A DNA stretch of 64,000 nt from an uncultured Gemmatimonadota bacterium (GTDB lineage Bacteria > Gemmatimonadota > Gemmatimonadetes > Longimicrobiales > Longimicrobiaceae), in NCBI GenBank assembly GCA_902805735.1, contig CADCTW010000217.1, positions 1-64,000 of the forward strand, written 5' to 3'. The translations under genes were made by a program, and so were the position numbers. Below the pieces are notes generated by a model. It worked only from the letters and a program-made list of their open reading frames with translations. It did not search any database and had not been told where the DNA came from. This document shows positions 33,681 to 51,964 of the stretch, piece after piece. Within the stretch, counting starts at the first letter, position 1. Each line of letters opens with the position of its first letter.

Positions 33681-34847
33681 GTGGCGGAACGGGTGGTGAA
33701 GCGGGCGTTCAAGTACCGCTTCTACCCAACCGTTGAGCAGGAGACAGAGCTGCGGCGCACGTTTGGTTGCGTTCGGCTTGTCTACAACCAGGCCCTCGAA
33801 GCCCGAACCGCCGCTTGGTACGGCGAGCAGCGGCGGGTGTCCTACGTGCAGTCTTCGGCGATGCTGACCGAGTGGAAGCGCGATCCCGACCTGGCGTTCC
33901 TCGCCGAGGTGTCGTCGGTCCCGCTTCAGCAGAGTCTTCGGCATCTGCAAGGGGCGTTCGTCAACTTCTGGGAGAAGCGCGCGAAGTACCCGCGGTTCAA
34001 GTCCCGGAAGCGGGGCCGGCAGTCCGCCGAATACACCCGGTCGGCGTTCCGCTACCGCGACGGCTCGCTCACTCTCGCGAAGATGCGCGACCCGCTCGGC
34101 ATCCGCTGGTCGCGTCCCCTGCCCGACGGGGCGGAGCCGACCACGGTGACGGTGTCGCTGGACCCGGCCGGGCGCTGGTACGTGTCGCTGCTGTGCGAGG
34201 TCGCCGTCCACGACGGCCCGCCCACTGACAGCGCCGTCGGTGTCGACGCCGGAATCACCAGCCTCCTCGCCCTGTCCACGGGCGAGAAGATCACCAACCC
34301 GCAGCACGAGCGGGCTGACCGGAAGCGGCTCGCGCTCGCTCAGCGCCGACTTGCCCGCAAGCAGAAGGGATCGAACAACCGGGAGAAGGCGCGCCGCAAG
34401 GTCGCCCGCGTCCACGCCCGGATCACCGACCGCAGACGCGACCACCTGCATAAGGTCACCACTCGGCTCGTTGCGGAGAACCAACGCATCGTGATCGAGG
34501 ACCTGAACGTCCGGGGCATGCTCGCCAACCACAGCCTGGCCCGCGCCATCTCCGACGCGGCCTGGCACGAACTGCGGAGCATGCTCGACTACAAGTGCCG
34601 GTGGTACGGCCGCGACCTCGTCGTGATCGACCGCTGGTTTCCCTCGTCCAAGACGTGCTCCGCCTGTGGCGCCGTCCAAGACTCCATGCCGCTCAACGTG
34701 CGAGAGTGGACGTGCCGCTGCGGCACCATCCATGACCGCGACGTCAACGCGGCCAAAATGATCCGAACCGCCGGGCTGGCGGGGATCGCCTGTGGAGACG
34801 GTGTAAGACCAGCTCGCGCGGAAGCGCGAGAGGGCAACTGTCGCTGA
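33681..34847 (+). CDS. tnpB: TnpB RNA-guided nuclease (IS605 OrfB)
   Basis: 388 aa from GTG 33681; GTG 33675 is also possible. RuvC residues are present: D189 (VGVDAGI), E273 (VIEDLNVRGM), D354 (HDRDVNAAKM). A zinc-knuckle Cys set is at C326, C329, C345 and C347. The N-terminal VKRAFKYRFYPTVEQE and the LVYNQALEA motif are standard for the family. TnpB cuts DNA guided by RNA from the element's right end. All catalytic residues are intact. Confidence 0.93.
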   Translation: MAERVVKRAFKYRFYPTVEQETELRRTFGCVRLVYNQALEARTAAWYGEQRRVSYVQSSAMLTEWKRDPDLAFLAEVSSVPLQQSLRHLQGAFVNFWEKRAKYPRFKSRKRGRQSAEYTRSAFRYRDGSLTLAKMRDPLGIRWSRPLPDGAEPTTVTVSLDPAGRWYVSLLCEVAVHDGPPTDSAVGVDAGITSLLALSTGEKITNPQHERADRKRLALAQRRLARKQKGSNNREKARRKVARVHARITDRRRDHLHKVTTRLVAENQRIVIEDLNVRGMLANHSLARAISDAAWHELRSMLDYKCRWYGRDLVVIDRWFPSSKTCSACGAVQDSMPLNVREWTCRCGTIHDRDVNAAKMIRTAGLAGIACGDGVRPARAEAREGNCR

Positions 34848-36421: not shown

Positions 36422-37266
36422 CGGACGAAGCGGTTCGTCTGCGCCGCCGGTGCTGCCTCTATAGGCACTTCGATGCAGACGGTGTCCTGCTGTACGTCGG
36501 GATCAGCAGCGACCCGGGCCACCGCACCTTCGAGCACTCGGTAGGTGCTGGTCGACGTTGGGTGAACTACGCGTCGCGCATGGAAGGGGTGTGGTACGCC
36601 AGCACGGAAGCTGCGCGTGCGGCTGAGCTGATCGCCATCCGACATGAGGCGCCGGTCTTCAACAGCGCCAACCGCTCATCGCATGCGGAGAGCGAGGCGC
36701 GCAAGCGGGCCTACGAGCAGTCACACGTTCCGCTTGCCGTGCCGGGCGAGCATGTTCCGCCTCGCCTGACGCGCGCGGAAGCTACCGAAGCCGTGCGCCA
36801 GCAGATCCTTGCGCGTGATCTACCGCCTGGCGAGAAGATGACGCCGATACCGGCGCTTGCGGTCGAACTGGACATCGGCCATGAGCGTGCTCGTCTAGTG
36901 GTGGAAACACTGGTGAAGGAGGGCTGGCTGGAGAAGCCGCGGTTCCGTGGCCCATGCTTCGTGACTCGCACACTGCCGCCGGTCCCTCCGAGTGCGGAAC
37001 GCCTCGCAGTCTTGCGCGGAAGCGGCTACAAGCCAGCGCATGAGGTCATCGCAGAGCGGCTTCGAGCCCAGATCGAGTCGGGGCAACTAGCACCCGGAGA
37101 CCAGATCCCGTCGCTGAGTGAGCTGGCGAAGTCGGCGACGACCTCGATCAAGTCTGCACAGCTCGCCGTAGGTCTGCTGAGGGTCGATGGCTTGGTGGCG
37201 ACACGGAAGGGCCAGCGGACTCGCGTGCTCCCATCCGGCCGCGCAGCTCTCGAAGCCGCTAGCTAG
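36418..37266 (+). CDS. GIY-YIG nuclease fused to two GntR-type winged helices
   Basis: A 282-aa protein. GIY-YIG domain about 11-85: LYR at 14-16, YVG at 26-28, Arg36, catalytic-type Glu70 (ARAAELIAI), Asn82 (PVFNSAN). First GntR-like wHTH about 115-175 (AVELDIGHERARLVVETLVK), second about 200-275 (ERLRAQIESGQLAPGDQIPS). It may nick or cut at sites chosen by the wHTH domains, or be a regulator. All GIY-YIG core residues seem intact. Confidence 0.82.
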   Translation: MTDEAVRLRRRCCLYRHFDADGVLLYVGISSDPGHRTFEHSVGAGRRWVNYASRMEGVWYASTEAARAAELIAIRHEAPVFNSANRSSHAESEARKRAYEQSHVPLAVPGEHVPPRLTRAEATEAVRQQILARDLPPGEKMTPIPALAVELDIGHERARLVVETLVKEGWLEKPRFRGPCFVTRTLPPVPPSAERLAVLRGSGYKPAHEVIAERLRAQIESGQLAPGDQIPSLSELAKSATTSIKSAQLAVGLLRVDGLVATRKGQRTRVLPSGRAALEAAS

Positions 37267-38170: not shown

Positions 38171-38725
38171 ATGCCGTTCGTGCCCGAGGACGCCCGCCCC
38201 GCTGTCCGCCCGGTGGATGACCGCCGGTGGGTGTTGCTGGAGGATCTGGTGTACCGGGGAGCGGTGGACGCGTGGACGGTTCCGGCCGGATTCCTGACGG
38301 ACTTCGCGTCGGTTCCGCCCGGACTGACTTGGCTGGTGCCGACCACGGGCCGCTACACCCCCGCAGCCGTCGTCCACGACTACCTGCTTGTGGAGGCCCT
38401 GCCCGCCGGTCAGATCTCGGCACGGGACGCAGATGGCGTCTTTCGGCGCATCCTCAGAGAGCTGGAGGTGCCGACCGTGAGACGTTGGATCATGTGGGTC
38501 GGGGTCCGCTGGGGCGCAGCGGCGAAGCCAGCCCGCCGGCCCGGGTGGTGTCGCGACGCCCCCACCGTCATCGCCCTCACCCTGCTCGCGCTGCCGTTCC
38601 TCACGCCCGGTCTGATCGCCGCCACCCTCGGGTGGGGCGCCTACCGGGTCGCCGAACTCGCCGCCGCAGCGCTCACCCGGCGACGCTCAGGGCTTCTCCT
38701 GCCGCGCCCGGCTCGTCGCTCGTAG
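38171..38725 (+). CDS. DUF1353-like protein with C-terminal membrane helices
   Basis: A 184-aa protein. Residues 1-105 match DUF1353: YRGAVDAWTVPAGFLTDFAS, VPTTGRYTPAAVVHDYLL, FRRILRELEVPTVRRWIMW. Residues 135-168 hold one or two TM stretches (TVIALTLLALPFLTPGLIAA). The family is found in phages and has no known function. The stop overlaps the convergent GntR-HD gene by 39 bp. Confidence 0.8.
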   Translation: MPFVPEDARPAVRPVDDRRWVLLEDLVYRGAVDAWTVPAGFLTDFASVPPGLTWLVPTTGRYTPAAVVHDYLLVEALPAGQISARDADGVFRRILRELEVPTVRRWIMWVGVRWGAAAKPARRPGWCRDAPTVIALTLLALPFLTPGLIAATLGWGAYRVAELAAAALTRRRSGLLLPRPARRS

Positions 38726-39625
38726 CTCGTGGTAGCTCGACGCGAACGTTGACCACCAGGCGTGCGGGTCGCCGGCCACGATCGCCTGCGCGAGCTGCTT
38801 CCCCGCCTCGGTGCGAAGATCCTCGATCGACGTATCGGACCACGCCTGCGTGGCGTAGCCCTGCATGGCGTACTCGCGGGCCTGCAGCAGCGTCTCGATC
38901 CTGTCGGCGTCCTTCGCCACCTTCGCCTCGACCGTCTTCTTGGCCTCGTACTCGGCGGTGAGCCCCTGCAGCAGCTCCGCGACCTCGCTGGGCATCGTCG
39001 ATGCCTGGTCCCTCGTCACGGCTTCCGGCTTGCGGGTTTCCACGTAGCTGCGGCCGACGGACGGGATGTCCCCGATACGGGTCTCGTGGACGTCGTGCAT
39101 GAGGCACAACGCCGCGACCCGGCCGGGGTCGACGCCCTCGATGGCGGCGAGGGTGACACCGATGAGACCGACGCGGAACGAGTGGTCGGCGACGGACTCG
39201 GGGCGGGGGATGGCGAGCAGGAGCCAGCCGGCGCGGGGGAGGTTCTTGAGGTGCCCGGCCTCGTGCAGGAACGTGGCCACGCCATGCAGGGGGTGCGGCT
39301 CGCCGTTCTCTGCGGCAGGGATGCGGGCGCGGGCGTTGACGTAGGCGCCGCTGCCGGTGATCGAGCGGATGAAGCCTTCGTCCTGGAGCAGGCGGATGGC
39401 GTTGCCGATCGTTGGGCGGACGACGCCGAAGAACTTGGCGAGTTCCTGCTGTGTCGGCAGCTTGGTGCCTGGCTCGAACTCCCCGGACAGGATCGCCGCT
39501 CGGATGGACGCCGCGATCTTGACGTAGCGCTTGCGCGGGTCCTCTGGATCAACAGGCTGCATGGCCGCAGACCATAGCTGCCTAAGCGAATCCCGGTCGA
39601 CGGCCGCCCTGTTGACAATACGCAT
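38687..39625 (-). CDS. GntR-type regulator fused to an HD (YfbR-like) domain
   Basis: 312 aa from ATG 39625. N-terminal GntR wHTH about 33-96 (YVKIAASIRAAILSGEFEPG, TKLPTQQELAKFFGVVRPTI). HD domain about 110-310 with H148 (ADHSFRVGLIG), H177-D178 (LMHDVHE) and GDIPSVG, close to 5'-deoxynucleotidase YfbR/HDDC2. It appears leaderless (TACGAT 6 nt upstream) and is divergent to the transfer operon, like KorSA-type GntR repressors of AICEs. Ligand might be a nucleotide (inference). Confidence 0.85.
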   Translation of the reverse strand: MRIVNRAAVDRDSLRQLWSAAMQPVDPEDPRKRYVKIAASIRAAILSGEFEPGTKLPTQQELAKFFGVVRPTIGNAIRLLQDEGFIRSITGSGAYVNARARIPAAENGEPHPLHGVATFLHEAGHLKNLPRAGWLLLAIPRPESVADHSFRVGLIGVTLAAIEGVDPGRVAALCLMHDVHETRIGDIPSVGRSYVETRKPEAVTRDQASTMPSEVAELLQGLTAEYEAKKTVEAKVAKDADRIETLLQAREYAMQGYATQAWSDTSIEDLRTEAGKQLAQAIVAGDPHAWWSTFASSYHELRATSRARQEKP

Positions 39626-39754: not shown

Positions 39755-39916
39755 ATGGGCAAGCCCGAACGCCGCGCCTTCAAGACCGAGCTGGAGAAGC
39801 TCTCCAAGTACGCCGAGGAGACCGACGAGGAGCTGGCCCAGAACGCCCGCACCGCAGAGGCCGAGAAGAACGTCAACTTCCTGGAGAACCTCTGGGTCCG
39901 GGCGCAGGTCGACTGA
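39755..39916 (+). CDS. Small charged helical protein
   Basis: 53 aa from ATG 39755 with Shine-Dalgarno AAGGAG. KTELEKLSKYAEETDEELAQ is coiled-coil-like. First gene of the transfer-like operon. Unknown function. Confidence 0.7.
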   Translation: MGKPERRAFKTELEKLSKYAEETDEELAQNARTAEAEKNVNFLENLWVRAQVD

Positions 39917-40089
39917 TGCCCGGATGGCTGAGGCGGCTCGCCGACGACTCGACCAAGCCCGACACCTGCATCGACTGTGGCGCCGGCATCACGATCTCGG
40001 CCAGCAGCTGGGAGGGCATGTCGCGCTGCAACGACTGCAACTTGATCGCCATGAACATGACGGCGCCCCGCGAGAAGGGCCGCAAGTGA
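39916..40089 (+). CDS. 57-aa zinc-finger protein
   Basis: ATG overlapping the previous TGA. CIDCGAGITISASSWEGMSR followed by CNDC, a four-Cys zinc finger. Basic C-terminus. Probably a small nucleic-acid-binding protein. Confidence 0.7.
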   Translation: MPGWLRRLADDSTKPDTCIDCGAGITISASSWEGMSRCNDCNLIAMNMTAPREKGRK

Positions 40090-40178
40090 TGTCCGCGCAC
40101 ACCTGCGACTGCTCGTGGCCGTACTGCGCCACCTGCCAGGAGTACATCCAGCCCGCCCAGCAGAACGGAGACCGGTGA
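40089..40178 (+). CDS. 29-aa Cys-rich peptide
   Basis: TGATG-coupled at both ends. MSAHTCDCSWPYCATCQEYI with four Cys; could bind zinc. Too small for family assignment, but framing on both sides supports translation. Confidence 0.58.
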   Translation: MSAHTCDCSWPYCATCQEYIQPAQQNGDR

Positions 40179-40279
40179 TGAGCTGCCCTCACGACGAAAG
40201 GGTGAGCGACACCTACGGCCCGCAGGGCGAGGTACTGACGTGGCGCTGCGTCGACTGCGGGGCGGTGCTCACGCGATGA
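40178..40279 (+). CDS. 33-aa zinc-knuckle peptide
   Basis: TGATG overlap upstream, ATGA overlap downstream. CPHDERVSD, then RCVDCGAVLTR at the C-terminus, a half zinc ribbon. Part of a run of tiny Cys proteins before the membrane genes. Confidence 0.6.
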   Translation: MSCPHDERVSDTYGPQGEVLTWRCVDCGAVLTR

Positions 40280-40524
40280 GGGTTGATCGTCGCCAGCCCC
40301 ACCGCCACTCCCGGTCGGCTGGCAAGCGAGAGGTGTGCGCCGCCCTCGCCGTGGGCCTTGTCGTCCTGGTCGCTGTGCTGGTGCTGATCGGCATGGACCT
40401 CATCGACGCCGTGATCTGGGTGCTGGGGGCGGTGGTGGTCGTGTGCGGCGTCGCCCTGATCGTGGTGGCGTGCATGGCGCTGTACTCCCGCCTCACCCGA
40501 CGCGGCAGGGGAGACGGGCCGTGA
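40276..40524 (+). CDS. Small two-TM protein, SpdB-like
   Basis: An 82-aa protein. TMs about 17-38 (VCAALAVGLVVLVAVLVLIG) and 44-66 (AVIWVLGAVVVVCGVALIVV), basic ends. Position before a DUF2637 gene and an FtsK-like gene resembles Spd spread proteins in Streptomyces plasmids. Confidence 0.68.
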   Translation: MRVDRRQPHRHSRSAGKREVCAALAVGLVVLVAVLVLIGMDLIDAVIWVLGAVVVVCGVALIVVACMALYSRLTRRGRGDGP

Positions 40525-40775
40525 TCGCCGTGCTGGTGGTCGCAGCCGTGTCCGCCGCTGGCTGGGCCACGTCCGGATGGCTGCCGTGGCTGGCATTCGT
40601 GCTGTCCCAGGTCCCCGCCGCTGTCGTGGTCGGGGCGCTGCTCTGGCACCTCGCCGACCGCATCCCGTGGGACGTCCGGCCCATCCGCTCCTACCGACCC
40701 GAGCCCATCCCGGTGGTGGAGCCGGAGCTGGCCCCGACCCGACTGGACGACTACCGCGCCCGCAAGGCCGCTTGA
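40521..40775 (+). CDS. Small membrane protein, SpdB-like
   Basis: An 84-aa protein, GTGA overlap with the upstream gene. TMs about 2-18 (IAVLVVAAVSAAGWATS) and 23-45 (LAFVLSQVPAAVVVGALLWH), then a Pro/Arg-rich tail. Likely in the same membrane complex as its neighbours. Confidence 0.66.
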   Translation: MIAVLVVAAVSAAGWATSGWLPWLAFVLSQVPAAVVVGALLWHLADRIPWDVRPIRSYRPEPIPVVEPELAPTRLDDYRARKAA

Positions 40776-40789
40776 GAAAGGGACGTGTC

Positions 40790-41734
40790 GTGCTGATGCG
40801 AGGACCGCAGAGCAGGGCCGGGTGGCGGGTGTGGCTGCCCGCCCTGCTCGTCGCTGCAAGCGCCGTGGCCGCCACCGCCCACGGGATCTACGAGGTGGCC
40901 ATCGCCTCCCGGGTCCCGTGGGGGGTGGCGTTGCTCTACCCCCTCATCACCGACGGGCTGGCATTGGTGGCCTACGCCTCCACCCACCGCCTCCGCGGAT
41001 GGGCCGCCGGCTACGCATGGCTGGTGACCATCCTCGCCGCCGGGCTGTCCGGGCTGGCACAGGCCGCCTACCTCGCCTCGGAGCCGCTGGTTGCCAGCCA
41101 GGAGATCCGGTTCGGCGTGGGGGCGTGGCCAGCGGTGGCGGCGGCCATCGTGGCTCACCTGCTGTACCTCCTCGCCCGCCCGCCAGCTCGCCAGCAGAAG
41201 GTGGCTGATTCGCCAGCCACCCCCGCCGCCACACTGGCACCTGCCACCACTGCCACCCCCGTGGCGCCACCCGCCACCCGACCTGTCACACCGGCCAGGC
41301 TGACATCCGCCACCCCCCTGGCAAACGGACCCGGACCGTGGGCGCCACGCAAGGTGGCAGAGCCGGTGGCGGAACGCCACACCACATCACCAGCCAGCCA
41401 GCCACCCGCCACCCGGGTCGCCAGCCAGCGCCCTGCCGCCCTCCGCCAGTCGTCAGCCACCACGGTGACCGCCAGCGCTGCCATGGGTGGCGCCAACGCC
41501 AGCCAGTCCGAGACGGACGTGGAGAAGGCCACCCGCCTCATCGCCAGCGATACCGGGCGCCCCACCCTGGCCCGCGAGCTGGACATCGAGCCCCACCACG
41601 CCCGCGCCCTCCTCGACGACGCCAAGGCGGGCGTGCTGGACGACCCAAAGGACCTCGCGGAGCGGCTGTCCCGCTACCAGGAGGCCGCCCGCGCCGCCCG
41701 TGCCCGCAAGCAGAAGGAGGCTGTGTCGGCATGA
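40790..41734 (+). CDS. DUF2637-like membrane protein with C-terminal HTH-like end
   Basis: 314 aa from GTG 40790 (Shine-Dalgarno AAGGGA). About four TMs in 1-125: WLPALLVAASAVAATAHGIY, GVALLYPLITDGLALVAYAS, AAGYAWLVTILAAGLSGLAQ, WPAVAAAIVAHLLYLLA. This matches DUF2637 of Streptomyces conjugative elements. Residues 135-250 are an Ala/Pro/Thr linker packed with repeated GCCACC/GGTGGC DNA. The C-terminus (ATRLIASDTGRPTLARELDI) looks like a wHTH. Confidence 0.82.
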   Translation: MLMRGPQSRAGWRVWLPALLVAASAVAATAHGIYEVAIASRVPWGVALLYPLITDGLALVAYASTHRLRGWAAGYAWLVTILAAGLSGLAQAAYLASEPLVASQEIRFGVGAWPAVAAAIVAHLLYLLARPPARQQKVADSPATPAATLAPATTATPVAPPATRPVTPARLTSATPLANGPGPWAPRKVAEPVAERHTTSPASQPPATRVASQRPAALRQSSATTVTASAAMGGANASQSETDVEKATRLIASDTGRPTLARELDIEPHHARALLDDAKAGVLDDPKDLAERLSRYQEAARAARARKQKEAVSA

Positions 41735-42430
41735 CCGCCGTGGACGAGCGGGCCCGCGCCATCGAGCGGGAGAGGGCCGCAGCAGATGAGGACTTCTTCT
41801 CGGTGCTCATGCCGGAGGCAGCCCGTCACGTCGTTGTCGCTGGTTACGGGTCCGCGGCGATGTTGCAGCGCAAGATGCGCCTGCCGCATGCCACCGTCAT
41901 CGACCTGCTGGTGGAGCTGCAGGACGCCGACGCGCTCGGCCCCCCGGACGGCAAGCAGGAGTGGCCGGCGCTGGTCGACGAGAACGGCCTGGACGCGCTC
42001 CTGACCCAGCTCGCCACCCTGGCCGACGACGAGGGTGGCGAGGACGTGGCGGAGGTGGTCGCCACCTCGCCACCCGCCACACCAGCCACCCCTGTGGTGT
42101 CGCTGGTGAAGACCAGCAACCCACCCGTGGCAGGTGGCGAAAACCAGGGTGGCGAAGGTGGCGACGACGAGGAGTGGGAAGACGAGTCGCCAGGTGGCGA
42201 ACTGGTGCCACGCCTGTTCGGCCGGCTAGCCACCCGCCACACCAACGAGTTCGCCACCTTGCATGGCGACGAGGTGCCACACCTGTTCGCCAGGGTTCGC
42301 CAGGCTGGCGCCATGGGTGGCGGGTGGCTAGTTGACCAGCCACCGGTGGCACGTGGCATCGCCGCCACCCGCCAGGGACCCAAGGCCGTCAAGCGGCTGG
42401 TGATCTGGTCGCCACGTGGCATCCGCCGCT
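41130..42430. repeat. Dense GGTGGC/GCCACC repeat clusters (possible translocase recognition sites)
   Basis: By-eye count: about 15 copies of GGTGGC or GCCACC between 41130 and 41530 and about 16 between 42010 and 42370; the interval between has about one. Extended form (A/G)GGTGGCGA recurs at 42033, 42132, 42147, 42156 and 42192. Copies occur in different reading frames and both orientations, so protein sequence alone does not explain them. Confidence 0.72.
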
Positions 42431-44388
42431 CGGTGGTGTGGCTACGCGAGTGGCTGACCGACGCCGAATCCCTCCGCCTCCTGGCGAAGCACGAGGCCGC
42501 TGGTGAAGGGGAGTCCTACGCCAGGGTGGCGGACGCCCGCGCCAAGAAGAACCTCGCCGGGCGTAGGTGGCTAGCCGCCACGGTGGCGGGGGTGGCGGTG
42601 CTGGCGGTGCTGGCGTGGCACGCCCCGTCCGCGTTCGCTGGCATGTTCGCCACCCTCGTCGCCCTCGGTGTGGTGACAGCTGGCCGGTCGTCGTGCCGCC
42701 ACCCTCAGGAACTCGGCTACCTCGCCCTCGCCGCTGTGGCGTTGGGGTGGCTGGCGTGGTGGCAAGGCCCCAACCTCGCCACCCTCGTTCCCCGCCCGCC
42801 CGTCTGGGTGTGGTGGCTTCTCATCGGAGGACTCGTCGTGCTGTTCGGACTGCTCGGCCGCAAGGAAGACCAGAAGCTGGTGGAGATGCCCGCTGCTATG
42901 GCGTCCACTGCGCCGCCGGTGGTGACCGCGCCCATGGTGATCGAGGCCCTCATCGCCCTCGGGAACGCCCGGATGAAGGACCCGGACAGCATCCGCGTCC
43001 TCATGGACCCCCACCGCACCGGCCCGTTCGTCCAGATCGACCTCGAACTACCCGCCGGCACCACCGCAGCGTGGGTGGTGAACAACCGGGAGCCCCTGGC
43101 CGGGGCCATGCGCCGGCCGATGAGCATGGTGTGGCCCCGCGTCGGGAACGCCCACCCCGACCACCTCGTGGTGCTGGTGTCCGAGGTCCCCATGAACGAG
43201 ATGGAGCAGCAGCCCTGGCCGCTGCTCACCGCGACCGGCCCCATCGACGTGTTCACCCCGCAGCCGGTGTTCACCAACCAGCTCGGTGACTGGGTCCACC
43301 TGAACCTGGCCTACGCCTCGTGGGTCATCGGCGCCGTGCCGCGGATGGGCAAGACCTTCGCGGTCCGCGAGCTGCTGCTCATCTACGGGATGGACCCCCG
43401 GGTCAAGGTCATCGCCCTCGACGGGAAGGGCACCGGCGACCTGTCCCCGCTCGCCCCGTTCGCGCACCTTCACATCCGCGGGGCCCGCGCCGACAAGCCC
43501 GAGAACATCGAACAGGTCCGTGACCTGGTGCAACGCCTCCTGCGGGAGATGGGGCGGCGCGCCGACATCCTCGCTGACCTCCCGTTCGACGAGGTCCCGG
43601 AGAGCAAGGTGACCAGCGAACTCATCAACGCTCACCCCGAGCTGGACCTGGGCCCGATCGTGCTGGGCATCGACGAAACCCAGTCGTTCTTCTCGTACGG
43701 GTTCAAGGGCAGCAAGGAGCACAAGGAGATCCGCGAGGAGATCCGCGACGGCGTCATCGAGCTGATGCGCATGGGTCCTGCGCTGGCGATCTGGGTCATC
43801 ATGGCCACCCAGACGGTCCGGGACTCCACCATCCCCACCGAGGCGCAGGCCGTGGCTGTGTACCGCTACGGCATGAAGATGGAGTCTCACGAGCCCAACG
43901 ACAAGGTGTTGGGTACCGGGGCGCACCGGGCCGGCACGACCGCCACCATCTTCGGGTTCGAGGAGAAGGGCATCGGCTGGTTCAAGGGCGAGGGCGCCAA
44001 GCCGTTCATCGCCCGCAGCGTCGTCGGTCTGGACGCGGTCGCGTCCCGGACGCTGGCCACCCGGATCAGGGCGTGGCGCGCCTCCCGAGGGCTGCTCACC
44101 GGCCAGGCGGGCAGCGACGGCATTGAGGATGCCGAGGTGGTCTACGACCTCGTGGCCGACGCCGCGCAGGTGATGACCGAGCGCGGGGCCGCCAAGGCGC
44201 AGTGGGGCGAGCTCGTGGCGTGGCTGGGGGAGTGCCGAGGCCAGTACGTCGGACTGTCGGAGGAGGAGCTGTCGGCCAGCATCCGATCCGCTGGGGTCAA
44301 GGTCCGGGATGTGCGTAGCGGCACCTCGGTGCGTAAGGGCGTCTACCTGTCCGACCTGCGGAGACACGTCGTCGGCGACGAGGAGTGA
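41731..44388 (+). CDS. FtsK/TraB-type DNA translocase
   Basis: An 885-aa protein. Residues 21-80 resemble the FtsK gamma wHTH that reads DNA motifs (SAAMLQRKMRLPHATVIDLL). A charged linker follows (90-230), then three TM segments (about 278-378). The motor has Walker A at 534-542 (GAVPRMGKT), Walker B near 648 (IVLGIDETQ) and MATQTVRDSTIPTEA. TraB/FtsK proteins move double-stranded DNA between or within cells. Gamma is normally C-terminal, so this order is unusual. ATGA overlap with the DUF2637 gene. Confidence 0.9.
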   Translation: MTAVDERARAIERERAAADEDFFSVLMPEAARHVVVAGYGSAAMLQRKMRLPHATVIDLLVELQDADALGPPDGKQEWPALVDENGLDALLTQLATLADDEGGEDVAEVVATSPPATPATPVVSLVKTSNPPVAGGENQGGEGGDDEEWEDESPGGELVPRLFGRLATRHTNEFATLHGDEVPHLFARVRQAGAMGGGWLVDQPPVARGIAATRQGPKAVKRLVIWSPRGIRRSVVWLREWLTDAESLRLLAKHEAAGEGESYARVADARAKKNLAGRRWLAATVAGVAVLAVLAWHAPSAFAGMFATLVALGVVTAGRSSCRHPQELGYLALAAVALGWLAWWQGPNLATLVPRPPVWVWWLLIGGLVVLFGLLGRKEDQKLVEMPAAMASTAPPVVTAPMVIEALIALGNARMKDPDSIRVLMDPHRTGPFVQIDLELPAGTTAAWVVNNREPLAGAMRRPMSMVWPRVGNAHPDHLVVLVSEVPMNEMEQQPWPLLTATGPIDVFTPQPVFTNQLGDWVHLNLAYASWVIGAVPRMGKTFAVRELLLIYGMDPRVKVIALDGKGTGDLSPLAPFAHLHIRGARADKPENIEQVRDLVQRLLREMGRRADILADLPFDEVPESKVTSELINAHPELDLGPIVLGIDETQSFFSYGFKGSKEHKEIREEIRDGVIELMRMGPALAIWVIMATQTVRDSTIPTEAQAVAVYRYGMKMESHEPNDKVLGTGAHRAGTTATIFGFEEKGIGWFKGEGAKPFIARSVVGLDAVASRTLATRIRAWRASRGLLTGQAGSDGIEDAEVVYDLVADAAQVMTERGAAKAQWGELVAWLGECRGQYVGLSEEELSASIRSAGVKVRDVRSGTSVRKGVYLSDLRRHVVGDEE

Positions 44389-44391
44389 GCG

Positions 44392-44510
44392 CCGCTACGG
44401 CCGCTACATCGCAGGTCAGAGCGTTGCGGGGGGTGTCGCGGTGCCGCTACGAATCCGGGCTCCGCTACACCGCCGCGACACGCTCAGTGGCTTGTCGCGC
44501 GCATCCGCTA
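44392..44510. promoter_or_regulatory. Repeat-rich noncoding gap before tyrosine recombinase
   Basis: Contains CCGCTA(C) near 44392, 44401, 44444, 44462 and 44504, and an inverted repeat GTGTCGCGG (44433-44441) / CCGCGACAC (44473-44481), with a third TGTCGCG at 44493. The gap is 134 bp, between the translocase stop and GTG 44523. It may be a recombination (res/dif-like) site or an operator. Confidence 0.55.
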
Positions 44511-44522
44511 AGAAAGGTTAAC

Positions 44523-45488
44523 GTGAGCGTTGCGAGAGAGGTCGACCGCGGAGGCGCGGACTTCGCCGTCTCGGCCGCCACCCAGGCACACCTTGACGAG
44601 GCGGTCCCGGAGAACACGCGCCGCGCCTACCGCTGGGCATGGGGTCGCTTCACCGTCTGGTGCCAGGAAGTGGGCCGGACCGCGCTGCCCTGCTCTGCCG
44701 AGACCCTGGTCGAGCACGTGACACACCTCCGCGCGCTCGGGGCGAAGCCGGCCACGATCGACCAGGCCATCGGGGTCATCCTCGCCGAGCACAACCGCGT
44801 CGATGCCGTCCTCCCGCGCACCAAGGCTGCCCGGGACTCGCTGCGCGGCTACCGCCGGCAGCTCGCCGAGGAGGGCTGGACCCCGAAGCAGGCCACCCCG
44901 TTCACCGAGGACTCGCTCCGGCAGACCATCGCCGCCCTGGACCCGGCGACGCTGCGGGGGCGGCGCGACCACCTGCTGCTGGTGTTCGGGTTCGAGATGA
45001 TGGCCCGCCGCTCCGAACTCGCGGCCCTCGCCATGGCCGACGTGGTCGACGGACCCGAGGGGCTGGAGGTGCGCGTCCGCTGGTCGAAGACCGATAAGCA
45101 GTCTCAGGGCCGCGTGGTCGCCCTCCCGGCGCAGAAGGATGCCGCACTGGACCCGGTCCGGCTGTTCCGGGCGTGGCGTGCCGAGCGCGGCGATGAGGGG
45201 CCATTGCTGTGCCACCTCGACCTCAACGGCCGTGTCGGTGGGCGCCTAACGGGGGCGGGCGTAAACCACGCCGTACGGGCCGCCGTGAAGCGAGCCGGCC
45301 TGCCCGACCCCGACACCTACACCGCCCACTCCCTGCGCGCAGGCGGCCTCACCGATGCCCTCCGACGCGGCGTTCTGCTCGGCATCGCGGCCCGGCACGG
45401 CGGTTGGGACCCCGAGTCCCCGACGGTGCTGCGCTACGCCCGCGCCGCTGACCGGTGGCGCGACAACGCCATGGCAGGAGCGTTCTGA
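44523..45488 (+). CDS. Tyrosine recombinase
   Basis: 321 aa from GTG 44523 (Shine-Dalgarno AAGAAAGG). SAM-like N-domain: PENTRRAYRWAWGRFTVWCQ. The catalytic domain has R162 (ARRSEL), K189 (RWSKTDK), H269-x-x-R272 (HSLRAGG), H292 or W295 (RHGGWD) and nucleophile Y305 (VLRYARAADRW). All key residues are present. It lies between a translocase and an Spd-like gene, so plasmid-type resolution or integration is likely. Confidence 0.9.
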   Translation: MSVAREVDRGGADFAVSAATQAHLDEAVPENTRRAYRWAWGRFTVWCQEVGRTALPCSAETLVEHVTHLRALGAKPATIDQAIGVILAEHNRVDAVLPRTKAARDSLRGYRRQLAEEGWTPKQATPFTEDSLRQTIAALDPATLRGRRDHLLLVFGFEMMARRSELAALAMADVVDGPEGLEVRVRWSKTDKQSQGRVVALPAQKDAALDPVRLFRAWRAERGDEGPLLCHLDLNGRVGGRLTGAGVNHAVRAAVKRAGLPDPDTYTAHSLRAGGLTDALRRGVLLGIAARHGGWDPESPTVLRYARAADRWRDNAMAGAF

Positions 45489-46021
45489 TGGCCACCAGGT
45501 CCCGCCAGAAGCCCGGCCGGAAGGCGCCCGTGTCCGGGGCCGGGAAGCGTGTCCTGCGCAGGGTGGGCGCCAACGCCAAGAAGGGGTGGAACAGGACGCT
45601 GCGCCGACACCCGCTCGTCGGTGTGCTCGCGTCGATCGCGTTGGGGATCGCGGCGGTGGTGATGCTGCTGCTGGGGGTCATCTTGGAGTCGTTCTTGTAC
45701 TACCTCGTGTCCGCCCTGGCCGGGCTGGGGACGTTGGCGATCCGGCGGGCGCAGCAGATCCAGCGGGAACGAGCGGCCCGTCCTCCTCGTCCGGTCCCGG
45801 GGTCCGGTCCGCGCCCGTCCTCGCCGCCGCCGAACTCGGGGCCGAAGCCTGCGCCTGCGGGGAGTTCGGTGAAGTGCACGGAGACGGGCAAGCCGATCGA
45901 CGTGTGCAGCTTGCACTCGCGTCATGTGGCGACCAGCGAGGGTGTGGAGACGTTCGGTCGGCCGTTGGGGTCGCCTATCGGTCGGCGGAGGAAGCGGGAC
46001 AAGCCCGGCTCCACACCGTGA
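45488..46021 (+). CDS. Membrane protein, SpdB-like, last gene of transfer operon
   Basis: 177 aa from ATG 45488 (TGATG overlap). Basic N-terminus, then a TM near 42-62 (LVGVLASIALGIAAVVMLLL) and a second near 66-86 (ESFLYYLVSALAGLGTLAI). Basic, Pro-rich C-terminus with CTETGKPIDVCSLH. Resembles the membrane spread proteins of Streptomyces plasmids. Confidence 0.68.
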   Translation: MATRSRQKPGRKAPVSGAGKRVLRRVGANAKKGWNRTLRRHPLVGVLASIALGIAAVVMLLLGVILESFLYYLVSALAGLGTLAIRRAQQIQRERAARPPRPVPGSGPRPSSPPPNSGPKPAPAGSSVKCTETGKPIDVCSLHSRHVATSEGVETFGRPLGSPIGRRRKRDKPGSTP

Positions 46022-46265: not shown

Positions 46266-46871
46266 ATGCAGACAGACGCCACCTCCGCCGCCCGGCCCAG
46301 TTTCCAGACCAGCGAGCCCGTCACCGACCTCCGCATGGAGATCTCCGGCCGATCCCTCGGCGAACTCGTCCGCTGGATTCAGGACGGCGACGCCACCTAC
46401 GACCTGCCCTACCAGCGCGGCGCGGTGTGGACCGACGAACAGCGCATCATGCTCATCCTGTCGATGCTGTCCGGCACACCCGTCCCGGCCCTGATCATCA
46501 ACGATCGCCCGCAGCGCATGTGGTTCGACGCCGACGGCGAGCGCCTCCCGATCTACGCCGTCATCGACGGGAAGCAGCGCCTCACCACCTTCCGCATGTT
46601 CATGGAGAACGACCTGCTGGTCCCCGCTTCCTGGTTCGCCGCAGAGGAGGTCAAGGCCACCGAGGACACCGAGGACGGCCCGTACGTGCGCTACTCCGGT
46701 CTGACGCGCCGCCAGCAGCTGTTCTTTGAGCGCATCGCCGTCCCCGTGGCGGTGGGCAAGCTCGGGTCGGTCCGCGAAGAGGCGGCCGTGTACCTGCGCG
46801 TGAACGGCTCCGGGACGCCGCAGTCCGACGAGGACATGACGCGGGCCGCTCGCGTCGCCGCTGGCGCATGA
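46266..46871 (+). CDS. Stand-alone DUF262 (ParB/GmrS-like) protein
   Basis: A 201-aa protein with DUF262 signatures: DLPYQRGAVWTDEQRIMLIL, SGTPVPALIIN, AVIDGKQRLTTFRMF and YLRVNGSGTPQSDEDM. In GmrSD-type enzymes this domain is an NTP-dependent ParB-like nuclease or regulator; here the DUF1524 partner is absent. Phage copies might counter restriction or act in DNA metabolism. ATGA overlap with the next gene. Confidence 0.83.
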   Translation: MQTDATSAARPSFQTSEPVTDLRMEISGRSLGELVRWIQDGDATYDLPYQRGAVWTDEQRIMLILSMLSGTPVPALIINDRPQRMWFDADGERLPIYAVIDGKQRLTTFRMFMENDLLVPASWFAAEEVKATEDTEDGPYVRYSGLTRRQQLFFERIAVPVAVGKLGSVREEAAVYLRVNGSGTPQSDEDMTRAARVAAGA

Positions 46872-47083
46872 GCGACGAGACCTGGACCGTCGAGCAGTGC
46901 GCCCAGGAGTGGGGCATCAGCCCCTCCTCGTGGCGGGTGTACGTCGGCGCCGGACGTGCCCCCAAGCCGCTGCCGGGCTACGACGAGCAGCGGCGGCGGC
47001 GTTGGGACCCGGAGCAGGTGCGGCAGGCGAAGGGGCGCAGGCCGGGTCGCGGGGCGCGGACGGACCTCCACCCCACCGAGTGA
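46868..47083 (+). CDS. Small HTH protein, excisionase candidate
   Basis: A 71-aa protein. Residues 4-60 show a MerR/AlpA-type HTH: TVEQCAQEWGISPSSWRVYV then EQVRQAKGRRPGRG. Lies just before the serine integrase region. Such proteins can be recombination directionality factors. By position only. Confidence 0.62.
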   Translation: MSDETWTVEQCAQEWGISPSSWRVYVGAGRAPKPLPGYDEQRRRRWDPEQVRQAKGRRPGRGARTDLHPTE

Positions 47084-47395
47084 TCCAGTAGCTGTCGGCT
47101 ACCGTTCAATCACGGCGGGTCGCCTTCCCCCGCGCCCGCCCACCGACGCCCTCTCTCCGGCATCCCCCGACGGAGAGGGGGCGTCGCACGTTGCGGGGGT
47201 ATCGTCACCGGCACGGCAGGTTGAGCGCGTACGTGCCTGCTGTCCGCCTTCGCCCCGGCCTCGTCCCCCTGACGAAGCCGGGGCGTCGTGCGTTCAGGCC
47301 ATGATCCAGATGTGCGGTTACGGTGATCTTTGTCGACTCCCTCTAGGAGGAGTTGAGCGGCGAGACCTCCGCCAAGGGAGGTGTACGGTCCGTCG
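47084..47395 (+). other. Intergenic region: two hairpins, possible attP
   Basis: No gene seen. Hairpin 1 at 47145-47185: GACGCCCTCTCTCCG / CGGAGAGGGGGCGTC, 15 bp with one G-T. Hairpin 2 at 47251-47285: CGCCCCGGC-C-TCGT / ACGA-A-GCCGGGGCG. Both look like terminators. The remaining 110 bp before int, with ACTCC...GGAGT at about 47335-47352, are the expected place for a serine integrase attP (weak). Confidence 0.6.
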
Positions 47396-48877
47396 GTGCG
47401 CCGCCACCGCCGAGCCATCCTCTACGCCCGTGTAAGCAAGCACGACCGGGCTGGAGGGGACAAGGCCAAGAGCGTCGACCAGCAGATCGCCGAGATGCAG
47501 GCCCAAGCGACACGCGAGGGCGTCACCGTCCTCTCGGTGCTCCGCGACGACGGAATCAGCGCATCCCGGTACGCGAAGAACAAAACCCGCGAGGGCTGGC
47601 AGGAGGTGACCGCCGCGCTCCTCGCCGGCGGGGTCGATGAACTGTGGGCGTGGGAGCTGTCTCGCATGACCCGCGACCGCATGGTGTACGCGAAGCTCGT
47701 CGGGACTTGCATCGCCACCGGGGTGCTCCTCAACGTTGACGGCAAGCTGCACGACCCGTCCGACCCGGACGACGGGTTCATGCTCGACATGCAGGCCAGC
47801 CTCGCCGTGCGCGAGTCAGGCATCACCTCGCGGAGGGTGAAACGAGACGTGGAAGCGCGAGCGCAGGCAGGCAAGCCACACGGGAAGGTGCCTTACGGCT
47901 ACGCCCGCACCTACGAGCACCGGTCCAGTGGTCGCATCCTGTTAGAGCAGGTTCCTGACCCGACAACGGAGCCGGTGGTGCGCGAGTTGGTCGCCCGGCT
48001 GCTGCGAGGGGAGAGCGCCTACAGCATCGCTGCCGACTTCGACCGCCGCGGTATCCCCTCGCCTGAGACGCACCGGGCCCGTCGGGTTCACGGTCCCGAT
48101 GCGCCGGTGACCCCTTGGCGGCTGGAGACGGTGCGCGACCTCGCCTTGTCCCCGACGCTGGCCGGGCAGCGGGTTCACAACGGGCAGGTCATCGGGCAGG
48201 CGACATGGACGCCGATCATCTCTGCGGGAGACCACCTTGCGCTGACGACGCTCCTGCGAGGCGAGGCCCAGCGTCAGCACCGCCCCGGGACCGTTCGACA
48301 CCTCTTGTCTGGCATCGCAGAATGCGCGGTCTGCGGTGCGCCGCTGCGGCACATGCTGAACCGGGGCACGCCTAGCTACTGGTGCCCGGGGCCCGACCGT
48401 CGAGGACGGGCGTGCGTGTGCCGGGCGAAGGACAAGCTCGACGCGCTCGTCGTCCTGCACGTTGTGGGGCGCCTACGCGACCCGGAGCTACTGCACGACC
48501 TCGCTGTCCGACGTGAAGGCACGGGCGCTGCGGTGACGGCCGCAGTTGCCGAGCTCCAAGATCTGCGTGCCCAACTGGCGGCTTTCGTCCAAGCGGCGGC
48601 GGAGGGATCGGTGTCAGCGACGTCGTTCGCCACGATCGAGGCGGGGCTGCAGCGGAAGATCGATGCGGCGGCCCAGCGAGTGCCTCGCACCGGCCCGCTG
48701 CCTGCTGCAGTGGTGGATGCGGCCGGTCCGCAGGCGGAGCAAGTGTGGGACTCCCTGGACCTGGACCGCCGCCGGCAGATCATCCGCGCGCTGGTGCGGG
48801 TCGTGGTGCACAAGTCCAGCCTGCCCAAGGGATCACGAAGGTTCGATCCGTCCACCATCGAACTGATCCCGCTGTAG
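47396..48877 (+). CDS. int: Large serine integrase
   Basis: 493 aa from GTG 47396 (TACGGT 6 nt upstream suggests a leaderless mRNA; GTG 47381 is an alternative). Resolvase domain with nucleophile S14 (YARVSKHD), DDGISASRYAK and LSRMTRDR. Recombinase domain with KVPYGYAR and YSIAADFDRRGIPSPE. Zinc ribbon about 310-350 (AECAVCGAP...YWCPG). C-terminal coiled coil and basic end. It integrates the genome at attB. Confidence 0.95.
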   Translation: MRRHRRAILYARVSKHDRAGGDKAKSVDQQIAEMQAQATREGVTVLSVLRDDGISASRYAKNKTREGWQEVTAALLAGGVDELWAWELSRMTRDRMVYAKLVGTCIATGVLLNVDGKLHDPSDPDDGFMLDMQASLAVRESGITSRRVKRDVEARAQAGKPHGKVPYGYARTYEHRSSGRILLEQVPDPTTEPVVRELVARLLRGESAYSIAADFDRRGIPSPETHRARRVHGPDAPVTPWRLETVRDLALSPTLAGQRVHNGQVIGQATWTPIISAGDHLALTTLLRGEAQRQHRPGTVRHLLSGIAECAVCGAPLRHMLNRGTPSYWCPGPDRRGRACVCRAKDKLDALVVLHVVGRLRDPELLHDLAVRREGTGAAVTAAVAELQDLRAQLAAFVQAAAEGSVSATSFATIEAGLQRKIDAAAQRVPRTGPLPAAVVDAAGPQAEQVWDSLDLDRRRQIIRALVRVVVHKSSLPKGSRRFDPSTIELIPL

Positions 48878-49768: not shown

Positions 49769-51364
49769 GTGCGCGGGAGCACGACACAATCGGGGGCCGC
49801 AATGTTGCAGTCGCAAGACCACGACGACCTGAGCGTCATCGGCGACAGGTACGTCCTCGGGGACGCCCTCGGTAGGGGAGCGTCGGCGGTGGTGTACCGC
49901 GCCGAGGATCTCCGGACCGGCCGCGCCGTCGCCGTGAAGCTGTTCGGGCAGGGCTCCACCGCGGACCACCGGCGGCGTCGTAGCCGCGAGCTGCGGGTGC
50001 TGGCCGACCTGGACCACCCCAACCTGGTGCGGCTCCTCGACGGCGACGTCACCGGCGACACCCCGTTCCTCGTGACGGAGCTGGTCGACGGACCGTCGCT
50101 GGCCGAGGCGCTCGCCGACGGGCCGCTGCCGGCCATGCGGGTCGCTCGGCTGGGCGTTGAGCTCTCGGAGGCTTTGGCGGTGGTGCACGCCGCGGGTCTG
50201 GTCCACCGGGATGTGAAGCCGGCGAACGTGCTCATCGACCACGACCGCGCACGGTTGACGGACTTCGGGATCGCCCGGGTGCTGGACACCGGCGCCACCG
50301 GCACTACCGCAGGAGCCACACCGGGGACGGCGGCGTACATGGCGCCGGAACAGGTGTGCGGCGACTCGGTCGGACCACCCACGGACGTCTACGCCCTCGG
50401 GCTGGTGCTGATCGAGTCCTTGAAGGGGGAGCGCGAGTACCCCGGGTCGGCCGTGGAGTCTGCGATTGCCCGCCTCACTCGACCCCCGGTGATCCCGGAG
50501 GGGCTGCCCGCCGGGATGGGGGACGTGCTCGGGCTGATGACGGCGACCGACCCGGAGGACCGACCCACCTCGGAGGAGTGCGCCGCTCTCCTGGCCGCGG
50601 TGGAGACGCCCGGCAACCGGGTAGCGGTGGTGTGGGCGCGGCACTGGCGACCCCTCACCGGCGCCCTCGCCGTGGCCGGCACCGCGCTGGCGCTGACGGG
50701 GCTATGGGCGGCGCCCCAGAGCGGCATGGGCGACCCACTGGCCACCGGGCCCGGGTCGCCGCCCGCGACGTCGGGCCCGGATGGCTCGGTGCCGTCCCTG
50801 CCCGTCGGGGCTGGCCCTCTCTCGGCCGAGGGTGGTGTGGTGGCGCCGGGGCTTGCCGCTCAGACCGAGACGCTGCCCCCGGCCGTGGTGCCGCTCCCGC
50901 CGGATGTCCCGCAGCCCGAGGTGCAGCAGCCCGGCCAGCCCGGCCAGCCGGCTGTGCAGCCGCCCGCCGCCCCGGTCGACCGGCCCGCCCCTGCTGCTGA
51001 GGCGCCTCCCCGCGCGCCTGGTGGGTCCCCGCCTGCTCCTGCTCCTGCTCCGAGCCGGGGCGGAGGTAACAGCCCAGCCCCAGCTCCTGCCCCGGCCCCG
51101 GCTCCTGCGCCGTCCCCACCGCCCAGCAACAACGGTGGCGGGCAGTCGAGCACCCCGCCGCCCACCACTGGAGGCGGACAGACGTCCCAGCCGCCCCCCG
51201 CCCCCGCTCCGGAGCCTGAGGCGGAACGCCCCGGGCGTGGCGTGGGCCGTGACGGTGGCACCCCTCCTGGTCAGGCCAAGCGGGAGGAGTCGGGCAAGCC
51301 CGTTCCTCCCGGTCAGAGCGAGGGCAAGGGGAAGGACAAAGACAAGGGGAAGGGCGGCGACTAG
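49769..51364 (+). CDS. PknB-like transmembrane Ser/Thr protein kinase
   Basis: 531 aa from GTG 49769 (AGGAG 8 nt upstream; ATG 49802 possible). Kinase core intact: GRGASAVVY 35-43, K57, E74, HRDVKPAN at 146-153, DFG 165-167, APE 192-194. TM about 294-315. The tail 316-531 is Pro/Ala/Gly-rich then Lys-rich, with no PASTA domain. It lies between int and the repressor, a common moron position; host signalling or defence against other phages is possible. Confidence 0.92.
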   Translation: MRGSTTQSGAAMLQSQDHDDLSVIGDRYVLGDALGRGASAVVYRAEDLRTGRAVAVKLFGQGSTADHRRRRSRELRVLADLDHPNLVRLLDGDVTGDTPFLVTELVDGPSLAEALADGPLPAMRVARLGVELSEALAVVHAAGLVHRDVKPANVLIDHDRARLTDFGIARVLDTGATGTTAGATPGTAAYMAPEQVCGDSVGPPTDVYALGLVLIESLKGEREYPGSAVESAIARLTRPPVIPEGLPAGMGDVLGLMTATDPEDRPTSEECAALLAAVETPGNRVAVVWARHWRPLTGALAVAGTALALTGLWAAPQSGMGDPLATGPGSPPATSGPDGSVPSLPVGAGPLSAEGGVVAPGLAAQTETLPPAVVPLPPDVPQPEVQQPGQPGQPAVQPPAAPVDRPAPAAEAPPRAPGGSPPAPAPAPSRGGGNSPAPAPAPAPAPAPSPPPSNNGGGQSSTPPPTTGGGQTSQPPPAPAPEPEAERPGRGVGRDGGTPPGQAKREESGKPVPPGQSEGKGKDKDKGKGGD

Positions 51365-51807
51365 CTGTCGTTCTGCGCCTTGTCGTCGACCACGCGGGGG
51401 CCCTTGCCGACGTCGGGGCGCGAGGACAGGCCCGGGGGGAGTTCGCCGGTGCGGATGCGGTCCTGCAGGTTGATGCGATGCCCCTCGCGGGCTTCGTGTT
51501 CAGCCGCCCACAGCTCGTGCTCGGCGAGACGGTGGGCGAGTTCGGCGACGAGTTGGCCTGCGGTGGCCTTCCGTAGCGGTGGGCCGTCGTCCTCGATGGA
51601 GGGCGGGTTGGCCGGCTCGGCGATGGCAGGAACGAGGCCGAGGGCGCGCCCCACCTTGGGCAGTAGTCGGGGATTCTTGTAGTCCCGGCCGGCTTCGAGT
51701 CTGTTGACGGTGCCGGTGCTGACGCCTGCCAGTTGAGCAAGTCTGGCCTGGGACCAGCCTCGGGCGAGTCGTTCGCGGCGGATGTCTTCACCGCTGAGTT
51801 CTGTCAC
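51361..51807 (-). CDS. XRE repressor, immunity repressor candidate
   Basis: 148 aa from GTG 51807. N-terminal HTH (DIRRERLARGWSQARLAQLA, GVSTGTVNRLEAGRDYKNPR). C-terminal helical region (LVAELAHRLAEHELWAAEHE) without peptidase motif. The promoter has operator GGGTCAAGGTTGACCC at 51822-51837 just before the -10 TAAGAT. Divergent from a Cro-like gene with a related operator: classic switch layout. Confidence 0.82.
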   Translation of the reverse strand: MTELSGEDIRRERLARGWSQARLAQLAGVSTGTVNRLEAGRDYKNPRLLPKVGRALGLVPAIAEPANPPSIEDDGPPLRKATAGQLVAELAHRLAEHELWAAEHEAREGHRINLQDRIRTGELPPGLSSRPDVGKGPRVVDDKAQNDS

Positions 51808-51821
51808 GCCACCTGATCTTA

Positions 51822-51837
51822 GGGTCAAGGTTGACCC
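51822..51837. promoter_or_regulatory. Operator 1, perfect 16-bp palindrome
   Basis: GGGTCAAGGTTGACCC. Arms GGGTCAA/TTGACCC around GG. Sits immediately upstream of the repressor -10, so binding would block that promoter. It matches two other copies (51985-52000, 53697-53712). Confidence 0.8.
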
Positions 51838-51964
51838 AAGGTGGGCATGGGTGCGCGCGTTCTGTGCACTCATGGATGTGCCTCCGCCTGCTGGTACCGC
51901 TTCCCCGGACATGCCAAGCCTGACACGCCGAAGCACCGCCTGGCGAAAAGATGCGTCCAGGGCG

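Follow-up and report, generated by a model that had tools for sequence, protein, structure and literature searches.

Does a temperate phage carry the kind of machinery with which Streptomyces plasmids transfer their DNA, and if so, where would the DNA go? The question is raised by positions 39,755–46,021 of the window analyzed here, the 64,000 nucleotides from position 1 of contig CADCTW010000217.1 (assembly GCA_902805735.1, an uncultured Gemmatimonadota bacterium). An initial annotation, made from the letters alone, had described this region as a DNA transfer module of the type found on plasmids or on actinomycete integrative and conjugative elements (AICEs), placed inside a siphophage genome. 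The region is a real, single rightward gene block, with open frames that overlap or are closely spaced. We consider it rather probable, judging from sequence comparison, that the block is a TraB/SpdB2-type duplex DNA transfer module common to a lineage of temperate phages, AICEs and Streptomyces plasmids. What is observed is the set of genes and its order, a complete phage genome on either side and relatives in many phage contigs, and three destinations for the DNA would be compatible with these observations: another cell, another hyphal compartment, or only a recombination site.

The translocase and the genes around it

The largest gene of the block (41,731–44,388, plus strand) encodes an 885-residue TraB/FtsK-type DNA translocase that combines a gamma-like part, a transmembrane region, an FtsK motor and a winged-helix pattern. 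The Pfam family FtsK_SpoIIIE matches it slightly below the cut-off (E 5e-5), while with a profile of the protein and four relatives the match to FtsK structures reaches E 2e-14. In its model (mean predicted local distance difference test score, pLDDT, 81.5), the motor has the fold of FtsK, and the top matches in the Protein Data Bank (PDB) include TcpA conjugation coupling proteins. Hydrophobic stretches lie at residues 280–318 and 358–376. At the C-terminus, residues 807–881 are modeled as three helices (807–817, 825–835 and 844–853) and then two strands (pLDDT 90–97), the pattern of a winged helix as predicted from the secondary structure of the model, with no separate fold search. Residues 26–83 resemble the FtsK gamma domain below the Pfam cut-off (E 0.0016) and are modeled with low confidence. 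This part is missing in the four relatives aligned with the window translocase, and one viral relative, L073 (L numbers denote the loci compared), matches the translocase from residue 26 onward.

Upstream of the translocase, in the position of SpdB2, lies a gene for a 312-residue DUF2637-like protein (40,796–41,734, plus strand). The protein entered an iterated DUF2637 profile at an inclusion limit of E 1e-5; its E of 4e-22 in that profile includes the protein itself. A phmmer search linked it to the L035 protein (E 2e-7), which is itself a PF10935 member, and Pfam DUF2637 scores above the cut-off for the counterparts in L033, L035 and L095 and below it for that in L041. The model (mean pLDDT 69) has four long helices and, at the C-terminus, a helical domain predicted with confidence. 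Among loci with at least 2.5 kb upstream of the translocase gene (tra), a gene matching the DUF2637 profile precedes tra in 28 of 42 phage loci and in 39 of 52 AICE loci.

The remaining genes of the block are small. A 53-residue open reading frame (ORF) with no homolog found (39,755–39,916) is followed by a 57-residue zinc-ribbon-like protein with two CxxC motifs (39,916–40,089) and a 29-residue Cys-rich ORF with a CxxC-type Cys pair (40,089–40,178), which bear out the tiny zinc-finger proteins first noticed there. Hydropathy identifies small membrane proteins at 40,276–40,524, with no family above the cut-off, and at 40,521–40,775. Past the tyrosine recombinase gene, a 177-residue membrane protein with a Cys/His-containing C-terminus (45,488–46,021) has a homolog in the same place in L095 (E 2e-41). 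All of these genes are on the plus strand, and none of the nine window proteins that were scanned reached the cut-off of an NCBIfam family.

Two GntR regulators adjoin the block, as had been noted. One, divergent from it on the minus strand (38,687–39,604), is a fusion of GntR (E 5e-18) and HD_3 (E 7e-31) domains and is probably the repressor of the block. The other (36,484–37,266, plus strand) joins GntR (E 2e-17) to an endonuclease-like N-terminus (phrog_16880, residues 2–75). Streptomyces NBC_00562 has adjoining but separate GntR and HD genes on a tra-bearing plasmid.

Relatives in phages, plasmids and AICEs

With the window translocase as query, 37 of 72,556 plasmid records and none of 50,697 phage records matched at E ≤ 1e-5. 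At E ≤ 10, twelve phage records gave short matches to residues 24–83. The phage translocase of L041 found no phage record at E ≤ 1e-3, and the P. alni relative found 67 (best E 7e-8). The initial annotation had named relatives in ordinary phages only, with none in plasmids, as the result that would speak against a plasmid-type module, and the 37 plasmid records are the reverse of it. The two best plasmid matches by E-value, NZ_CP053567.1 (27 kb) and CP052773.1 (42 kb), are circular genomes of phages: each is annotated with capsid, protease and terminase genes and has DUF2637 upstream of FtsK.

Searches of viral contigs and genome contigs with the single translocase sequence found no relative, and a five-row translocase alignment retrieved 62 contigs from IMG/VR together with at least 575 stretches of genome sequence, the best 80 of which were used as genome loci. 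Of the 62 viral records, 50 were tested whole, and an HK97 capsid was found in 29, a phrog_9 terminase in 32, and either or both in 39; local profiles found a hallmark in 6 of the remaining 12. The best 80 genome loci comprise 51 AICEs (prim-pol and a tyrosine integrase downstream of tra), 20 labeled "AICE?" (an integrase, no prim-pol found in range), 8 unlabeled loci and one of phage type (L156, from S. meridianus), with terminase and capsid genes within 10 kb of tra. The plasmid- or AICE-type character first proposed therefore stands in terms of the plasmid matches, while the picture of a lone intruder in a phage does not: judging by these matches, the block recurs across many phage contigs.

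Some labels needed closer attention. The records of L033 and L034 (22 and 15 kb) have neither hallmark; L033 has a tape-measure match (E 2e-28) and was finally labeled phage, and L034 has no such match, with tail- and lysin-like proteins seen by eye. L095 was finally labeled phage from a reading of its genes and L096 was left unlabeled; both had counted as "AICE?" in the first labels, which were used for a 144-row tree and for the phage-to-AICE identity comparison below. L071 and L072 have identical translocases and were both counted.

In the 144-row FastTree tree, seven changes between phage and AICE occur with the first labels. An 84-row tree under a mixture model, from which 18 "AICE?" rows were omitted along with half of the AICE and most of the unlabeled rows, has three with the final labels. 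The window falls in a clade of eight rows with a Shimodaira–Hasegawa-like approximate likelihood ratio test (SH-aLRT) support of 100, together with phage loci L033, L031, L035 and L095 and unlabeled loci L034, L096 and L097. Its exact place in the tree is unsure because its branch is long and the tree search was short.

This interleaving of AICE and phage translocases, with label changes in both trees, would also be expected if an AICE fragment had been captured through mosaic exchange and had no function in the phage. We regard such a passenger as improbable: the frames are kept open across diverse phages, and L095, from a 49-kb contig assigned to a Myxococcaceae metagenome-assembled genome, has the same four-gene order as the window (DUF2637, translocase, tyrosine recombinase, membrane protein) even though the translocases are only about 37% identical. 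In L095 the four genes are followed by endolysin- and tail-like genes, identified by eye; its recombinase is not an ortholog of that in the window. The L095 genome was outside the capsid and terminase test, and a tape-measure search of it gave one weak match.

Two other members of the clade, L033 and L031, carry iteron-like arrays at 16,755–16,972 (AAGGCGGA) and 3,053–3,314 (GCGGGGCC), respectively, and a ParA-like protein, seen by eye, or an annotated AAA ATPase. They are perhaps plasmid prophages.

The phage genome and its host

The contig has 85,076 bases, the first 127 of which are identical to the last 127, so that it is either circular, with 84,949 bases, or a genome that carries short terminal repeats. 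This overlap, along with virion, lysis, lysogeny and replication genes, identifies the contig as a complete temperate phage genome with no chromosomal flanks. The siphophage setting first described is upheld, corrected to a self-closing genome; the siphophage-like label follows from the proteins seen, and tail sheath genes were not searched for. Since the contig closes on itself, a search for an empty integration site is moot; right-flank DNA as the query gave, besides itself, short weak matches only (31 genomes).

The structural series starts on the plus strand with the terminase large subunit (675–2,342; phrog_9, E 1e-68), which matches 1944 phage records, with actinobacterial genera in the names of at least 1928. 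It continues with the portal protein (2,351–3,796; phrog_104, E 1e-134), the major head protein (5,060–6,097; phrog_29, E 4e-59) and the tail tape measure protein (10,688–15,928; phrog_4197, E 4e-134), and also includes scaffold and tail genes. The tape measure gene contains 138-bp tandem repeats at 13,752–14,239. An endolysin with Amidase_2 and PG_binding_1 domains is encoded at 27,106–27,897 (plus strand), and an IS605/TnpB-type gene (33,135–34,847; OrfB_IS605, Cas12f1-like TNB) lies between the late genes and the transfer-type block.

Downstream of the block, on the plus strand, are genes for a DUF262/GmrSD_N-like protein (46,266–46,871; PF03235, E 2e-16), an excisionase-like (Xis-like) DNA-binding protein (46,868–47,083; phrog_597 and phrog_66) and a large serine integrase with Resolvase, Recombinase and Zn_ribbon domains (47,381–48,877; phrog_95, E 1e-75). 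A phage-borne Ser/Thr protein kinase with a Pro-rich tail (49,769–51,364) adjoins the integrase. A repressor-like HTH protein (51,361–52,035, minus strand; HTH_3, phrog_5823) and a KilAC antirepressor (58,645–59,535, plus strand; PF03374, phrog_130) complete the regulatory genes, and Pfam and PHROGs scans place Sak4-like ATPase, replication initiator, RusA and HNH genes past the integrase.

An integrase and a TraB-type protein are present, but the prim-pol replication module of AICEs was not found, and the element is not classed as an AICE. The prim-pol profile had no match in the window or in the 59 proteins called in the right arm, where a phage replication initiator is found instead; RepSA was not searched for. 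Neither Rep nor ParAB genes of plasmid replication and partition were found by Pfam or PHROGs among the 16 of these 59 proteins that were scanned.

The position of the membrane proteins near lysogeny genes, with a GntR gene adjoining, raises the idea that these proteins and the ATPase act in superinfection exclusion or another membrane-linked defense. We know of no such role for TraB/DUF2637 pairs, although no search aimed at one was made, and the AICE relatives hold the pair alongside replication and integration genes; we consider a defense function more improbable still than a passenger.

Whether the Gemmatimonadota bin is the true host of the phage is doubtful. Among the matches listed (25 of 576 plasmid records), the 16S gene of the bin has 78–80% full-length identity to other copies, whether from actinobacteria, Bacillus or proteobacteria, and it has no close full-length match; a further 14 records with 80–95% identity lie outside those 25. 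Three 20-kb pieces of the phage have tetranucleotide distances of 0.22–0.31 to five bin contigs (C80, C76, C146, C220 and C176) and of 0.14–0.24 to nine loci from actinobacterial sources (named or viral), with the lowest values, 0.14–0.16, to L171 and L052. As the bin contigs differ among themselves by 0.12–0.25, the poor compositional fit of the phage contig is a hint only. No full translocase homolog beyond the window was found in the family of the bin (21 genomes), its order (154 genomes, E ≤ 1e-20) or a sample of its class (394 genomes, E ≤ 1e-40), which says little if the bin is a doubtful host. Matches in the family reach only the gamma-like part of the translocase, in long open frames taken as FtsK; residues 26–83 match long frames of related bins with a best E of about 1e-6.

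The 5% contamination of the bin, together with this poor fit in composition, could point to an AICE wrongly joined to a prophage during assembly. Such a chimera is extremely unlikely: the contig closes on itself over 127 identical bases, two independent circular records (NZ_CP053567 and CP052773) combine phage genes with a DUF2637-FtsK pair, and the gene order is repeated in L095.

Transfer, multimer resolution and known systems

Movement of duplex DNA is expected of the module because of its anatomy. We propose that a hexamer of the translocase at the membrane, aided by the DUF2637-like and small membrane proteins, would use its winged-helix domain to read sites on circular phage DNA and would pump the duplex to a neighboring cell or hyphal compartment. 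The divergent GntR-HD protein would keep the block repressed, and the Cre-like recombinase could resolve multimers of the circular form into single copies, to be moved or to be integrated by the serine integrase.

This recombinase, a 367-residue protein (44,385–45,488, plus strand), matches Phage_integrase above the cut-off, as the initial annotation of a tyrosine recombinase would have it. Its start is uncertain, with homology to the L033 counterpart beginning at residue 50, and residues that we take to be the catalytic R..HxxR..Y set can be read by eye in the sequence. With the serine integrase and the Xis-like protein encoded directly downstream, it is better described as a second recombinase, of the Cre type. 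All 17 of its PDB matches are Cre or Cre-derived, phage P1 Cre being its closest solved relative, and it matches 1324 plasmid records and 8 phage records, including phages ZL12 and Gilgamesh. The nearest relative in the loci compared is the L033 recombinase, encoded close to tra (40% identity).

The main rival to transfer, and the second possibility raised by the initial annotation, is resolution alone, as in FtsK-Xer systems. Here an AICE-type translocase would have been repurposed to work with the Cre-like recombinase in resolving multimers and segregating the circular genome, and no DNA would pass between cells. The genes of the two proteins overlap in the window, and five of the eight clade members (the window, L033, L031, L095 and L096) have a tyrosine recombinase gene no more than 3 kb from tra, although these recombinases are not all orthologs. 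P1 Cre resolves prophage dimers, which fits the Cre-like structural matches. The gamma-like residues 26–83, the plasmid-prophage likeness of L033 and L031 and the missing AICE-type array described below point the same way. However, P1 Cre works without a translocase, and to our knowledge P1 has no TraB or FtsK partner. The DUF2637-like and small membrane proteins are kept in the block and are, as far as we know, foreign to FtsK-Xer systems. The pairing of recombinase and translocase is also not general, since relatives of the window recombinase were found in only three other compared loci (L033, L143 and L121). We regard resolution alone as unlikely, although it is the alternative to be taken most seriously.

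Candidate recognition sites were compared in 18 loci, comprising a 16-row phage clade, L156 and L038 (12 phage and 6 unlabeled), and in 17 loci of the neighboring AICE branch (15 AICE and 2 unlabeled). CTAG cores (TGCTAGACCTAGCA ... TGCTAGGTCTAGCA ...), common to phages and AICEs, lie 0–120 nt past the tra stop in 17 of the 18 and in all 17, respectively, at about +15, +21, +37, +43, +55, +86 and +93. In some loci a core is absent or displaced by a few bases, and there is a single core in L091; outside the array, the CTAG density of these loci is 0 to 0.87 per kb. Between phage and AICE loci, identity averages 0.73 from +8 to +66, a value similar to that of the final 300 nt of tra (0.71); past +66 it drops to 0.57 and 0.46. 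With the final labels, and among loci whose sequence extends over this stretch, at least four CTAG within 120 nt were found in 46 of 53 AICE, 15 of 18 "AICE?", 13 of 51 phage and 11 of 26 unlabeled loci, that is, in 61 of 71 loci with either AICE label against 13 of 51 with a phage label. The phage-type loci are L036, L037, L039, L041–L043, L046, L047, L049, L052, L060, L074 and L156. The core pattern also occurs in 15 viral stretches, several of them from contigs already in the locus set.

By analogy, the natural guess for this array is a clt (transfer site), as the clt of pWTY27, in the passages of PMC3583192 that concern it, extends over 16 bp of traA and 159 bp next to it; alternatives would be an operator or an RNA element. 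A GntR operator was ruled out, as the motif is directly 3′ of tra and not upstream. Separately, many AICE loci have 8-mer clusters of 7–12 copies (for example GCGTCACC, CCGCTACC and GCCGTCCC) at about +5 to +8 kb from the tra start. The strongest clustered 8-mers in AICE loci are mostly near the integrase gene, not tra, and are perhaps integrase arm sites.

In the window itself, eleven copies of the 8-mer GGTGGCGA/TCGCCACC are clustered at 42,011–42,783, inside the translocase gene, and form a weak candidate recognition array. With the overlapping CGCCACCC, GGTGGCGA is the most clustered 8-mer of the window, and the strongest such case among 141 tra genes. None of 300 synonymous shuffles reached this clustering. 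Low-complexity coding may nevertheless explain it, since 10 of the 11 copies are in two reading registers; CGGGTACG clusters were dropped on the same ground. Such clusters are not general in the relatives and are also seen in control ORFs, and clusters that no shuffle reached are not in excess in tra genes (7 of 141, against 4 of 95 control ORFs).

Several of these results weigh against transfer. The CTAG array is present neither in the window nor in the other seven rows of its clade nor in L030, and no convincing site that could replace it was found in the window. The small membrane proteins, whose membrane nature agrees with the initial annotation, are Spd-like by position only. The DUF2637-like protein has no Pfam match of its own, and pSVH1 SpdB2 gave no match over the inclusion limit to the DUF2637 profile. 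An hhalign comparison of the window protein with four relatives was negative (probability 3.9%), so the DUF2637 assignment, which agrees with what was first noticed, rests on gene order and on the iterated-profile and phmmer results. Multimer resolution is fitted equally well by the gamma-like part and by the Cre-like neighbor, and the mycelial host that hyphal transfer presupposes is assumed.

On a broader scale, and more tentatively than for the module itself, it is possible that widespread, mostly uncultured temperate actinophages have two modes of spread, one through virions and the other through TraB-type conjugation of duplex DNA. Some keep the AICE cis array, so the machinery of a phage could act on AICE DNA and vice versa. 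That a phage may conjugate is an idea already known from pZL12. In the open-licence literature we found no description of phages with a TraB/DUF2637 module. Within that scope, it is new that an integrase-bearing phage has an AICE-type DUF2637-TraB module, and so are the recurrence of the module in dozens of phage contigs, its pairing with a Cre-like recombinase and the array common to phages and AICEs. Phages and conjugative elements are usually counted separately. Should TraB modules be functional in phages, prophages could move between hyphae without lysis, conjugation surveys that skip prophages would undercount, and exchange between AICEs and phages would let genes flow in antibiotic producers. 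The question becomes testable through the cis site read by each TraB-like motor and its action on phage DNA.

Among known systems, the gene order, first likened to that of Streptomyces conjugative elements, does resemble pSVH1 and AICEs. In pSVH1, a minus-strand GntR gene is followed by small ORFs, SpdB2, one ORF and TraB; the window has a minus-strand GntR gene, small ORFs, the DUF2637-like gene and the translocase. The pSVH1 TraB matches the translocase profile (E 2e-58) and is 28% identical to the window translocase over 40% of the latter. Passages of PMC4170104 describe TraB as the sole plasmid protein required for transfer of Streptomyces plasmids and as reading the 8-bp repeats of clt, and SpdB2 as binding DNA and interacting with TraB; a passage of PMC3583192 assigns the reading of 8-bp repeats in pSVH1 to the TraB winged helix. 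pSVH1, a small plasmid, encodes its own Rep, whereas the window belongs to a phage and has in addition the Cre-like gene and the gamma-like N-terminus, with only a weak clt candidate.

AICEs share with the window the DUF2637-TraB pair, GntR and an integrase, and a Nonomuraea AICE has the order GntR, DUF2637, FtsK. The window differs in its phage replication, virion and lysis genes, with no prim-pol match and no CTAG array 3′ of tra. The plasmid-phage pZL12 (phage ZL12) is reported, in work cited in a passage of PMC3583192, to transfer by conjugation. It shares with the window a GntR gene, an FtsK-annotated gene product (gp071) and a related recombinase (gp036, 30% identity), and differs in its annotated ParAB where the window has a serine integrase. 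That gp071 is the tra gene of pZL12 is a guess, as gp071–gp073 matched neither the translocase nor the DUF2637 profile, nor any Pfam family at E ≤ 0.01. NZ_CP053567.1 and CP052773.1, filed as Pseudonocardia plasmids, differ from the phage described here in their size (27 and 42 kb) and in that no serine integrase is annotated, but both join phage structural genes to a DUF2637-FtsK pair, and NZ_CP053567 falls within the translocase clade of the window.

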